A DNA stretch of 64,000 bases from Deltaproteobacteria bacterium. GTDB lineage: Bacteria > Desulfobacterota > Desulfobulbia > Desulfobulbales > Desulfurivibrionaceae. The stretch's first letter is position 1; every line of letters begins with the position of its first letter. Positions 18,340 through 22,806 of this stretch are shown here, piece after piece. The DNA lies in NCBI GenBank assembly GCA_021802645.1, contig JAJZRO010000004.1, positions 62,001 to 126,000 of the forward strand. The letters are read 5' to 3'. The translations under genes were made by a program, and so were the position numbers. The notes below the pieces were generated by a model that was given only the letters and a program-made list of their open reading frames with translations, searched no databases and was not told the origin of the DNA.

Positions 18340-18685
18340 TCCTTTGGTAAAATTTGCCAGACGCCGACAGCGTAGCCCCTGGGCAGTTGTAATACCTCAC
18401 ACCTCCCCTGTCCCGCAAGGGCGGGAACCATCCCCTGACAAAAACAGGGGAGAGTCCGGCGCGCTGCCCCGAGGCCGTGACGGCCAACCGGTCTGGGTAC
18501 CACAGAGAGGCATGCTATTTGGCGCTGCCGGCACCTCTCCCCCTGGCCGGTGAAAATTTCCTTAAAGAGCTTCACGGGTTATACCGATGTAAAAGGACAA
18601 AGCCATATAGATTTTGCACCGTTGCCTTGGAGAGGGCACGGGGTGCGGCCGGAGTTTCCGGCACGGAGAGAGAAGGAGGAAGAGG
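18340..18685. other. Divergent intergenic region between apbE and the FlgO operon
   Basis: About 346 bp with no convincing gene. It contains a spaced inverted repeat (TCCCCTGT near 18405, ACAGGGGA near 18446), possible upstream signals for apbE and a sigma-28-like promoter near the right end. Confidence 0.5.
18563..18589 (+). promoter_or_regulatory. Sigma-28 (FliA)-like promoter for the FlgO operon
   Basis: TAAAGAGC (18563-18570), exactly 11 bases, then TACCGATG (18582-18589). The FliA consensus is TAAAGTTT-N11-GCCGATAA, so the core TAAAG and CCGAT and the spacing all match. It lies 97 bases before the first FlgO-family start codon. Confidence 0.55.
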
Positions 18686-19369
18686 ATGCACTCAGTCGCT
18701 GAGAGGTTTCCGCGTCACCGCCCGTGGCGCGGCCTGATCTGTTGCGGTTTGTTGGCCGTCGTCTTCTTGTTGCCCCGGCCGGCCCAGGCGTTTTTTTTCG
18801 ATAGTCCCTCCGCGCCGGCGACGCAGCCTGCCCCCCCGCCGGTGAACGAGGCGGCGAACCTGCACGATCAGCTCAAGGAGCTGGCGGCCGGACTCTTTGG
18901 CAGCCTGCACGACGCTGATCCGGAGAATGGCGACCTCGCCGGCGGTCTCATTGTCTGCTCCTTTGTCGATCTCAAGAAACTTTCCCGCACCTCCTCCCTT
19001 GGCCGCTATGTCGCGGAACAGCTCATGGGTGAGCTGCAGCAGCATGGCTATACCGTGGTGGAGCTGCGCAAGGGCACCAGTGTGCTCGTCCAGGAGAAAC
19101 GGGGCGAGTTCGGGCTTTCCCGCGATCCGGCGCAACTGCGTCCGGATGCGGCGGCCGCCGCCATGTTGACCGGCACCTATACGGTCACCGGCGAGCAGGT
19201 CATCATCAATGCCCGGATCATGGACAATCGAACCGCCGTACTGCTCGCCTCGGCCTCCGCCGTCATCCCGAAGAACAAGGTGGCGAGCTTGCTGCTGGCC
19301 GACAGCACCTCACTTGTCACCTCGCACAAGAGCGAGGCGCCGATCTATATGAAACAGTTGGAGCCCTAA
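18686..19369 (+). CDS. FlgO-family outer-membrane/periplasmic protein
   Basis: 227 residues. A signal peptide (LICCGLLAVVFLLPRPAQA) and a Pro/Ala-rich spacer precede a FlgO domain: GGLIVCSFVDLKKLSRTSSL, GRYVAEQLMGELQQHGYTVV, LSRDPAQL, LTGTYTVTGEQVIINARIMD. In Vibrio, FlgO is an outer-membrane protein needed for normal flagellum function; here the assignment is by domain only. The start ATG follows AAGGAGGAAGAGG. It is the first of four same-strand genes with a FliA-like promoter in front. Confidence 0.82.
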   Translation: MHSVAERFPRHRPWRGLICCGLLAVVFLLPRPAQAFFFDSPSAPATQPAPPPVNEAANLHDQLKELAAGLFGSLHDADPENGDLAGGLIVCSFVDLKKLSRTSSLGRYVAEQLMGELQQHGYTVVELRKGTSVLVQEKRGEFGLSRDPAQLRPDAAAAAMLTGTYTVTGEQVIINARIMDNRTAVLLASASAVIPKNKVASLLLADSTSLVTSHKSEAPIYMKQLEP

Positions 19370-19474
19370 ACGATTTGTTTGGTGTGGGATAATGAAGCGG
19401 GCAAGGGGAAGGATTCCTCCTGTCCCATGCAGATAAACGCAGGCAAGGTCCAGGTTCAGGGAGGAAGAAAAAAC

Positions 19475-20197
19475 ATGAAACGATATCGTGTGCAGGTCTT
19501 GGCGGGGTGCATGGGGCTGTTGCTCGGCCTTGGCAGCGTTTCCTGCGCGAGCAAGACGGCGCAGACCGAGGAACCGGCCACTCCGCAGAAGAATGCGGCC
19601 ACCGAAGCCAGCCAGCCGCCGGCTGCGGCGGAAGGCCAGCGGGTACCAACCAACCAGCAGGTCTTCCAGTACCTGCCCGATACTTCCAAATCGCTCGGCA
19701 CCGAGACCCTGCTTTCGGACATCTCCAAGGAGATCGCCGGCAAGGTCTATTATGAGTTGAAGGACGACGGGGAACGGAATTTCACCGCCAAGGTGGCGGT
19801 GGTCTCGGCGGTGCCTATTTCCGACCTCAAGCGTGACAGCGAATTTGGCCGGATCATGGGAGAATATCTCATGACCGACCTGGCGGATCGCGGCGTCAAG
19901 GTGACGGAGTTGCGGCTCGCCAAGGAGATCAGCATTCTGCCGCAGACCGGCGAGTTCATCCTGTCCCGCAACATAGCCGAACTGGCCAACCATGCCCCGG
20001 AACTCGATTATGTGGTGGTCACCACCTTTTCCAACACCCGCAAGACCTTGATCGTTCAGGGGCGGTTGGTGGCACTCAAGGATGGCCAGGTAAAGACCGG
20101 CTGGCGGTATACCCTGCCGCTGAACCGTGAGCTGCTCGGCCTCTTTTCGCCGGGGGAGGCGCCGTTCAAGATTGCCGTGAAGGGTGCGTACAAATGA
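19475..20197 (+). CDS. FlgO-family lipoprotein
   Basis: 240 residues. The signal peptide ends in a lipobox (LGSVSC), giving a lipid-anchored protein. The FlgO-like core is VAVVSAVPISDLKRDSEFG, RIMGEYLMTDLADRGVKV, LAKEISILPQTGEFILSRN and YVVVTTFSNTRKTLIVQGR. It is a divergent paralog of the preceding protein; the conserved TGTY segment has changed to TTFS. GGGAGGAAG stands before the ATG at 19475. The next gene overlaps its stop codon by 4 bases, indicating translational coupling. Confidence 0.8.
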   Translation: MKRYRVQVLAGCMGLLLGLGSVSCASKTAQTEEPATPQKNAATEASQPPAAAEGQRVPTNQQVFQYLPDTSKSLGTETLLSDISKEIAGKVYYELKDDGERNFTAKVAVVSAVPISDLKRDSEFGRIMGEYLMTDLADRGVKVTELRLAKEISILPQTGEFILSRNIAELANHAPELDYVVVTTFSNTRKTLIVQGRLVALKDGQVKTGWRYTLPLNRELLGLFSPGEAPFKIAVKGAYK

Positions 20198-20742
20198 AGG
20201 AGCACGAACCGACTATGATAACGAAACATCTGGCTCGCTTCGGTGCCGCCTGCCTGTTGCTCGTGGCGGCGGGTATGGGGTGGGCGCCGTCGGCCTTCGC
20301 CCTGGACGGCGTCAACGGCGAGGCGGTCGCAGCCAAGCCAGAACCGCCGGCGGCCAACAATTACGCCTCCCTTTCCCATTTGGTAACCATGGTCTGCGGT
20401 GAGGCGATGGGGCAGTTTTATAACTTTTTCAGCGCCGCGCCGGTAACGGTGGACCCCTTCCTGGTGGCGGGCGAGTTTCCCGCCGGCCACCGGGTGACCC
20501 TGCTGGGCGCCACCTTGGCCGATCAGATGAGCGCCGACATCAACAATGAAGCAGTGGCCCAGCCGGCCGCCGCCGGCGCCGCCCATGAACAACGCCTGCG
20601 CGGCCTGATGCAGGAACTGGACGGCTATCTGCGTATTCACATGAGCGCCCAGAACAGCCGCGGGGAATCGCGTTCCTACGTGGTGACGGTGGAGATGTCG
20701 GAGCCGATTTACCGTGCGCTCCATACCTATGTGATGATGTAG
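20194..20742 (+). CDS. Exported protein of the FlgO operon, unknown function
   Basis: 182 residues with a signal peptide (LLLVAAGMGWAPSAFA). The mature part (SHLVTMVCGEAMGQFYNFFS, VDPFLVAGEFPAGHRVTLLG, then ADQMSADINNE) looks like a reduced relative of the FlgO fold with a C-terminal domain ending YRALHTYVMM. It overlaps the previous stop codon by ATGA; a second ATG at 20215 is also possible. I do not recognise a named family. By context it may be the third subunit of the same envelope structure, like FlgP or FlgT in vibrios, but sequence similarity to those is not claimed. Confidence 0.65.
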   Translation: MKEHEPTMITKHLARFGAACLLLVAAGMGWAPSAFALDGVNGEAVAAKPEPPAANNYASLSHLVTMVCGEAMGQFYNFFSAAPVTVDPFLVAGEFPAGHRVTLLGATLADQMSADINNEAVAQPAAAGAAHEQRLRGLMQELDGYLRIHMSAQNSRGESRSYVVTVEMSEPIYRALHTYVMM

Positions 20743-20769: not shown

Positions 20770-22806
20770 ATGGCTGACGAAGCAAAAAGCAGCGGCGATA
20801 TCGACGATTGGTTGGCCGACCTTGACGAGGAATCGGGCGAGGCGGACGCGGCTGCCCCGGCAGGGGAGTTGGATCAGTCCGATATCGACGCCCTGCTCGG
20901 CAACGTTACCCCGGCGTCGACGGGGGGCACTCCCGTGGCGAGCGGGGATAGCGCGCTGGAGCTTGATCAGTCGGACATCGATTCCCTGTTCGGCGAGGCA
21001 GGCCAGGCCGCAGCCGTGGCCGCCACCCCAGCCGCCACCGCCCCGGTTGAGGCCATGGAAGACCTCAGCCAGGCAGGGATCGATGAATTGCTCGGCGGCG
21101 GGCCAGCCCCGGCGACTGCCGGCACTGGCGAGGTCGGGTTAGCGCAGGACGACATCGACAGCCTTTTTGCCAGCTCCCCGCCGGCCAAAGAATCGCCGCT
21201 GGCCGAAGGCGAGGAGACGCCGAGCCAGGAGGAGATGGATGCGCTGTTCGGCTCCATCGGCATGGGACCGGGCGAGGACGCCACCCTTGCCACGTCGGCT
21301 CCCCCCTCGGCGTCCGGATCGGCGCCCGCCGAGGAACCGGAGGTGGATACGACGCTGCACAAGCCGGGTGCGAGCGCCGATGATTTTGCCCTCGATGATT
21401 CCGGTTTTGCCAGCGATGCCTTCGCGTTTGACGACAGCATCCCCGATATTCCGGATGAAACCACGCTGTCAGCCGAAAAGCCGATGCCGGCCGCCAAGGC
21501 GGCAGCCGCAGCCAAAGAGGATATTTTCGCCGAGACCGGCGCGGCGCAGGAGGACCTATCCGCCCTGCTCGCGGCCGGAGAGGAAACAACCGGGACCAAA
21601 GGGGGAGGGAAACCGTCTACCGCCATGTCATCCTCAATCAGCAAGTCCACAATAGGCGTTGCCTGCCTCATCATGCTGGCGCTGGGTGGTGGGGCATATT
21701 ATTTCATGACCCGCCCCAAAACCGTCTCCCCGCCGCCTCCGCTGCCGGTGACGGAGCCAGCCAAGCCGGCCGCCCCGGCCCAGCCGGCCAACCATCCGCC
21801 GACCGTCAAGGATGAGGAGGTGAAGATCGATGAGGCGAGCAATACTGCCGTCATCAACCTGACCGCCCAGGATGCCGACAACGACAAGCTTCAGTTCGAG
21901 GTCGTCAAGCCGCCGGAGCACGGGCGGCTCTCCGGCGACCCGCCTCACCTCACCTATTTGCCCAATCCCGATTTTCCGGGGGAGGACACCTTTGAGTTCC
22001 TGGCCTCCGACGGCAAGGATGCGAGTCCGCCGGGTCGTATCCACATCGTTGGCAAGGATATGCGGCAGCAGGCCGTGGCCAAGAAGGAAGAGTGCAAGAA
22101 GGGTAAGGCGGCGAAGCCGGTGGTGAAGGCGGTGGATCTGATGCTGACCACCATGAGCGGCCGGCCGCTGGTCATCGATTGGCAGAGGGTGTGGAAAAAG
22201 GCAAACCGCTCTGCCTACGGCCGCGCGGTGCAGGTCGAGATTGTCGAGGCGGGGCTGAGGGGCGGCGAGCTGACCCGGTTGGGTCCGTCACGGTCCCGCT
22301 ACCTGCCGCAGCGCTATTTCAGCGGCACCGAGGTGATCCGCTACCGCTTCCACAAGGGCGGCATCGCTTCCCCGACCAGGCAGCTTCTGGTGCGGGTGGT
22401 GCCGGGGGGCTTTGCGCCGACGCTGGTTTTGAAACCGCTCGCCAAGGCCTATCAGGTTGGGGAGACCGTGGTGCTCGACGCGCGGGCGACCAGGAGTGCC
22501 ACGCCCGATGCCCTGACCTTCAAATGGGAACAGGTGGGTGGCACCGCGATTCTATTGGAGCCCATGAATTCGCAGTCTTCGGCGGTGGCGTTTATCATGC
22601 CTTCTTTCTTCAGCAGTGAAAGGGCGCCGCAGCCGGTGGTGCAGGTGACGGTGACCGATGCCTTTGGTCGCCGGGCCTCCCGCACCATTACCGTGGGGGT
22701 GGAACCGAGGCACCGGAGCCCGAGCGCCTTGTGGCGGGGAACGCCGGATGGCGAAGTGGCGCAGGATCCACCGCTGCCGCAGGGCGCCTATCCGGGGCGA
22801 TTGTAG
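20770..22806 (+). CDS. Membrane protein with an array of FliM-like CheY-binding motifs and Ig-like periplasmic domains
   Basis: 678 residues. The acidic cytoplasmic half (1-290) repeats a motif close to the FliM N-terminal peptide LSQAEIDALL: LDQSDIDALLG (34), LDQSDIDSLFG (65), LSQAGIDELLG (99), LAQDDIDSLFA (124), PSQEEMDALFG (151) and a degenerate AAQEDLSALLA (258). One membrane segment follows (about 294-312), then a Pro-rich stretch, a cadherin/Ig-like domain (about 345-430; DADNDKLQFEV, GEDTFEFLASDG) and a C-terminal PKD-like domain (about 550-645). The FliM peptide binds phosphorylated CheY. The protein could therefore couple chemotaxis signalling to an envelope or flagellar structure; this is inference from motif and operon. 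Confidence 0.7.
   Translation: MADEAKSSGDIDDWLADLDEESGEADAAAPAGELDQSDIDALLGNVTPASTGGTPVASGDSALELDQSDIDSLFGEAGQAAAVAATPAATAPVEAMEDLSQAGIDELLGGGPAPATAGTGEVGLAQDDIDSLFASSPPAKESPLAEGEETPSQEEMDALFGSIGMGPGEDATLATSAPPSASGSAPAEEPEVDTTLHKPGASADDFALDDSGFASDAFAFDDSIPDIPDETTLSAEKPMPAAKAAAAAKEDIFAETGAAQEDLSALLAAGEETTGTKGGGKPSTAMSSSISKSTIGVACLIMLALGGGAYYFMTRPKTVSPPPPLPVTEPAKPAAPAQPANHPPTVKDEEVKIDEASNTAVINLTAQDADNDKLQFEVVKPPEHGRLSGDPPHLTYLPNPDFPGEDTFEFLASDGKDASPPGRIHIVGKDMRQQAVAKKEECKKGKAAKPVVKAVDLMLTTMSGRPLVIDWQRVWKKANRSAYGRAVQVEIVEAGLRGGELTRLGPSRSRYLPQRYFSGTEVIRYRFHKGGIASPTRQLLVRVVPGGFAPTLVLKPLAKAYQVGETVVLDARATRSATPDALTFKWEQVGGTAILLEPMNSQSSAVAFIMPSFFSSERAPQPVVQVTVTDAFGRRASRTITVGVEPRHRSPSALWRGTPDGEVAQDPPLPQGAYPGRL

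Follow-up and report, generated by a model that had tools for sequence, protein, structure and literature searches.

The window analyzed here, a 64,000-nucleotide stretch of a Desulfurivibrionaceae genome, encodes a 678-residue predicted inner-membrane protein, called the array protein below, whose acidic tail carries repeated peptides resembling the N-terminal CheY-docking peptide of FliM. Judged by its sequence, the tail probably binds CheY, and the protein is somewhat more likely to be located at the flagellar motor than elsewhere. The whole reading, in which a membrane-anchored multivalent docking tail is tied to the motor and collects phosphorylated CheY (CheY-P) beside the C-ring, is one that we regard as evenly balanced.

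Architecture of the array protein

An earlier note on this DNA had described a reading frame encoding a membrane protein with an acidic tail, one transmembrane (TM) helix, and Ig/PKD-like domains. The frame is open and encodes 678 residues, and residues 1 to 288 contain 61 D/E versus 8 K/R. The single TM helix, which supports the proposed inner-membrane anchoring, is predicted by AlphaFold2, and the Ig/PKD-like domains are supported by a Pfam Big_9 match and a sub-threshold PKD match. The features of the protein are as follows.

20770..22806, plus strand: array protein, 678 aa, with an acidic disordered tail, one TM helix, and three beta-sandwiches (ORF, Pfam, AlphaFold2)
20797..20823, plus strand: N-terminal element DIDDWLADL, residues 10-18 (order-wide alignment)
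20866..20901, plus strand: motif 1, ELDQSDIDALLG, residues 33-44
20959..20994, plus strand: motif 2, ELDQSDIDSLFG, residues 64-75
21061..21096, plus strand: motif 3, DLSQAGIDELLG, residues 98-109
21136..21171, plus strand: motif 4, GLAQDDIDSLFA, residues 123-134
21217..21252, plus strand: motif 5, TPSQEEMDALFG, residues 150-161
21442..21459, plus strand: PDIPDE, residues 225-230, in the cytoplasmic tail (family alignment)
21538..21573, plus strand: degenerate motif copy, GAAQEDLSALLA, residues 257-268
21643..21708, plus strand: TM helix, residues 292-313 (AlphaFold2)
21790..22041, plus strand: Big_9/cadherin-like domain, residues 341-424 (Pfam, AlphaFold2)
22132..22404, plus strand: second beta-sandwich, without a Pfam match (AlphaFold2)
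22459..22701, plus strand: third beta-sandwich, PKD-like, residues 564-644, below the Pfam cutoff (Pfam, AlphaFold2)

In the AlphaFold2 model, the tail is disordered and shows only short low-confidence helices (residues 37-43, 102-108, 126-133, and 153-159), which coincide with motifs 1, 3, 4, and 5, and the confident beta-sandwiches span residue 341 to about 645. We infer the membrane topology from the absence of a signal peptide together with the presence of the Ig-like domains. The Pfam scan returned solely Big_9/cadherin/PKD-type matches, all of them C-terminal. The middle and SpoA domains of FliM (PF02154), the CheZ domain (PF04344), the FlgO domain (PF17680), which is present in the neighboring flgO1 and flgO2 products, and a periplasmic LysM domain are all absent from the array protein according to Pfam. 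In fold searches, the model matched generic Ig/cadherin structures at low TM-scores. Two conserved elements of the tail had been overlooked in the earlier note. W14 of the N-terminal element is invariant in the order-wide alignment, and the element, also given as IDDWLDDL or DDWLDDL, resembles the C-terminal CheY-binding helix of CheZ (VDDLLDSL; CheZ peptide from PMC5760072). PDIPDE is invariant among 17 aligned orthologs of the family.

Motif copies and their conservation

The repeats claimed in the earlier note are present: five copies of L-x-Q-x-x-[IM]-D-x-L-[LF] and a sixth, degenerate one are found in the tail at the residue positions given above. The strict pattern [LIVMF]xQxx[IVLM]Dx[LM][LFM] occurs four times in the tail, and 100,000 shuffles yielded 17 single and no double occurrences; a looser pattern occurs five times, with 126 singles and no doubles in 100,000 shuffles. 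In 39 usable proteins, the array comprises 1 to 8 copies, with a median of 4, at a median spacing of 30 residues. Across 196 repeat units, D is found in 193 and L14 in 195, the I11 column is I in 176 and L, M, or V in the remainder, and the L15 column is L or F in 193. Q is invariant in these units, as the collecting pattern itself demands, and the neighboring columns A9, E10, A13, and N16 are more variable than the motif columns. Q, D, and L are also invariant in an alignment of 20 hand-picked units. In CheY-FliM complexes, the contacts of CheY include L6, Q8, I11, D12, L14, and L15 (PMC3774744), and these contact positions are the conserved columns of the array.

Similarity to FliM and CheZ of the same genome

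A scoring matrix was built from the array units alone, with FliM left out, and was used to scan 311,730 windows from part of the genome, sampled so that the flagellar contig was covered. The top window outside the array was the N-terminus of the genome's own FliM, ILSQDEVDALLKG, which scored 15.8 bits and ranked after four array copies. Under the same matrix, E. coli FliM scored 23.6 bits, and the E. coli CheZ peptide was not recovered in the register entered. The likeness to CheZ is based on Q-x-x-[VI]-[DN]-x-[LM]-L. The C-terminal CheY-binding peptide of E. coli CheZ is QDQVDDLLDSLGF (PMC5760072); in the genome studied here, the C-terminal residues are MKQDLVDDLLAEFGF in CheZ and PLDQDTVNKMLEEFGF in a CheZ-like protein of 558 aa. 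Taken together, the matrix ranking, the contact columns, and the CheZ ends of the genome support the claim that the motif is of the FliM/CheZ CheY-docking type and not generic low complexity. A motif hidden Markov model (HMM) of 20 positions, run against the whole genome, retrieved the four array copies, one spurious match, and nothing else, and FliM was not retrieved at E <= 10. The CheY of the genome's own flagellar cluster keeps A90, I95, Y106, V108, T112, and K119 of the FliM-binding face. Two side observations concern further components. The 558-aa protein (L160:6214-7887) has two stretches that match CheZ and a CheZ-like C-terminus, and the gene immediately 3' of the flagellar cheY (L136:279-1172) encodes a product that matches FliL weakly and is extended by an acidic stretch at its N-terminus.

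The flgO operon and its upstream element

The gene for the array protein follows three genes and a conserved bipartite element, which are listed below.

18562..18590, plus strand: bipartite element TTAAAG-N16-CCGAT, sigma28-like, upstream of flgO1 (conserved in orthologous operons)
18614..19369, plus strand: flgO1, FlgO family PF17680 (Pfam; PDB relatives)
19379..20197, plus strand: flgO2, FlgO family PF17680 (Pfam; PDB relatives)
20194..20742, plus strand: flgO3, conserved and probably exported, with no Pfam family (the name is coined here and is not a FlgO assignment)

The proposed operon with FlgO-family proteins is supported by the Pfam matches of two upstream genes (E values of 5.8e-35 and 4.2e-26). 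Relatives of FlgO1 and FlgO2 in the PDB are chains named "FlgO domain-containing protein," with 58 chains in 9yds and another 174 spread over three other entries. The flgO3 product shows a weak fold match to the C-terminal domain of LpoB and has no profile match among PDB sequences. The gene order flgO1-flgO2-flgO3-array is kept in the loci examined, except in G006, which is without flgO3. The operon is surrounded by metabolic genes and lies outside the flagellar cluster. In Vibrio, FlgO, FlgP, and FlgT form the H-ring (PMC6375700).

AAG-N16-CCGAT is found upstream of flgO1 in 22 of 23 loci versus 0.41 expected, an expectation uncorrected for the choice of a pattern first spotted in these same sequences, and the other spacings tested gave no occurrence. 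Exact sigma28 spacing was rejected for this element, as its spacer is one base longer than that of the E. coli FliA consensus. A riboswitch was also considered and rejected, since no Rfam family was found. Elsewhere in the genome, no clear gene follows a copy of the exact pattern, and no flagellin gene by which the element could be calibrated was found in the loci examined.

Distribution and association with canonical FliM

Orthologs of the array protein are present in 25 of the 27 genomes of the family and in 69 of the 243 sampled genomes of the order (E below 1e-40; counted from the table), with two to four candidates scored per genome, on which the absences rest. The phylum-wide search, in which two candidates were scored per genome, found no full-length ortholog beyond the order. 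The FliM matches in the order were split by E-value into 67 canonical and 105 divergent ones (hand count), the FliM fragments of G021 and G077 being assigned to the canonical group. Canonical FliM N-termini read MEQILSQDEVDALLKG, whereas eight examples of the divergent ones are like PILSKEEIADLL, without Q and D. The divergent FliM proteins of families f4, f11, and f12 (L115 to L122) have LSKxEIAxLL-like N-termini instead of LSQDEVDALL.

Array orthologs were found in 64 of the 67 canonical-FliM genomes versus none of the 105 divergent-FliM genomes. In the other three canonical-FliM genomes no ortholog was detected, which may be due to the small number of candidates scored. The remaining five ortholog-bearing genomes have no FliM match, but all have FlhA, and they are therefore most likely flagellated, with assembly gaps. 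Within family f15, the array protein occurs in the flagellated G061 and is missing from four genomes that have neither FliM nor FlhA. In the FlhA tree, the canonical and divergent groups are parted by one branch, so the contrast between them counts as one evolutionary event.

Other components are distributed in a similar way. CheZ is found mostly in the canonical-FliM group, and FlgO matches mostly number four or more in canonical genomes versus mostly one in divergent flagellates. A short cheY was detected, at the threshold used, in 10 of the 11 canonical flagellar clusters examined, the eleventh, that of G031, ending at a contig edge, and none was found in the stretch read of eight divergent clusters. 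The FliM-binding face of CheY is nearly identical across the ten canonical-FliM clusters with a detected CheY. The co-occurrence with FliM, CheY, and FlgO that the earlier note had proposed to look for was observed (64 of 67 canonical genomes, 10 of 11 clusters, and conserved synteny), and occurrence in non-flagellated species, which the note had named as evidence against its idea, was looked for and not found (FlhA checked in 18 genomes). In the reduced genome of G006 (L123 and L028), flgO3 is lost and roughly one copy is left of the array, although canonical FliM, CheZ, and CheW-family genes are still kept; near-loss of the array in a lineage is therefore compatible with retention of chemotaxis genes.

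Proposed role and alternatives

In the reading that we favor, the array protein sits in the inner membrane and its cytoplasmic tail would offer CheY-P a series of FliM-type docking peptides, and its periplasmic Ig-like domains, together with the FlgO proteins of the operon, would probably tether it to the basal body of the flagellum. The array would gather CheY-P next to the C-ring, compete with CheZ, and pass CheY-P to FliM, and switching may be sharpened or buffered as the outcome. Counting against this reading are the motif HMM, which did not retrieve FliM, the single branch behind the canonical/divergent contrast, the decayed array of G006, the three canonical-FliM genomes with no ortholog detected, and the position of the operon outside the flagellar cluster. 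A bolder possibility, which we hold to be less likely than not, is that the protein represents a new class of chemotaxis component. It would be a multivalent CheY-P antenna that spans the envelope as part of an accessory FlgO ring, and the motif copy number would set the size of the motor's local reservoir.

The earlier note had suggested a CheY-P sink or an envelope or flagellar brake. A CheY-P sink or buffer, which we consider unlikely, would sequester CheY-P from the C-ring or shield it from CheZ, so that tumbling is lowered or smoothed with no localization at the motor. The motif evidence for such a sink is identical to that for a protein close to the motor, and one face of CheY serves both CheZ and FliM (PMC3774744), but a pure sink needs neither the FlgO operon nor the large periplasmic domains, both of which are conserved. 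A serious rival, overlooked in the earlier note, concerns the partner itself: the tail may dock FlhG, a MinD-like ATPase, and the array protein would then be a landmark that sets flagellar number or position. The FlhG-FliM interaction goes through the FliM N-terminus (PMC12826062), flagellar and chemotaxis proteins have membrane landmarks in HubP and FimV (PMC8789113), and the genome's own flagellar cluster has a MinD-like ORF, assigned by eye, between the FlhF-like and sigma-factor/CheY ORFs. However, the conserved Q is a CheY contact that is also found in the CheY-binding C-termini of CheZ, which tilts the balance to CheY, and we rate FlhG as an improbable partner. It is more doubtful still that the client is a receiver-domain protein other than the flagellar CheY; further receiver proteins are present in the sampled genome, but the array tracks canonical FliM and the CheY of the flagellar cluster. 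An acidic, low-complexity spacer that docks nothing would agree with the acidic, disordered tail and its variable copy number, but it is very improbable given that the contact columns are conserved while the linkers diverge, that shuffles contain no double motifs, and that orthologs are confined to flagellates.

In the usual account, CheY-P reaches the motor via one peptide per FliM. If the tail does collect CheY-P beside the C-ring, a conserved membrane protein carrying as many as eight of these peptides would add a second layer to the path from chemotaxis signal to motor, local CheY-P buffering would become testable through changes in copy number, and an apparently undescribed FlgO operon would gain a candidate role.

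Comparison with known systems

The earlier claim that no protein of such architecture has been described agrees with the searchable literature, in which no multivalent FliM-like protein was found. The N-terminal peptide of FliM (EIDALL) has L-x-Q-x-x-[IV]-D-x-L-L and the contact positions in common with the array motifs, and the genome's own FliM is their best non-array match; FliM has one copy, whereas the array protein has several, is membrane-bound, and is without FliM or SpoA domains. The operon partners of the array protein belong to the family of FlgO in the Vibrio FlgO/FlgP/FlgT H-ring, whereas a FlgO domain is missing from the array protein, and no component of the H-ring is known to us to carry a docking tail in the cytoplasm. 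HubP has acidic cytoplasmic repeats, and HubP and FimV have LysM domains. Like the array protein, HubP and FimV are inner-membrane proteins with periplasmic and cytosolic modules (PMC8789113). The array protein differs from them in that its cytoplasmic part is N-terminal, Ig-like domains replace LysM, and its motifs are of the FliM type. The C-terminal helix of CheZ (QDQVDDLLDSLGF, PDB 2FMF, PMC5760072) shares the register Q-x-x-V-D-x-L-L with the array motifs. Unlike CheZ, the array protein has no phosphatase domain, and its motifs are internal and repeated. FliY is a C-ring component with one copy of the peptide. With EIDAL and CheC-like domains, FliY is likewise a second cellular protein with a FliM-type peptide (PMC12826062). 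Beside these systems, the array protein may represent a previously undescribed way of gathering the CheY signal near the motor.
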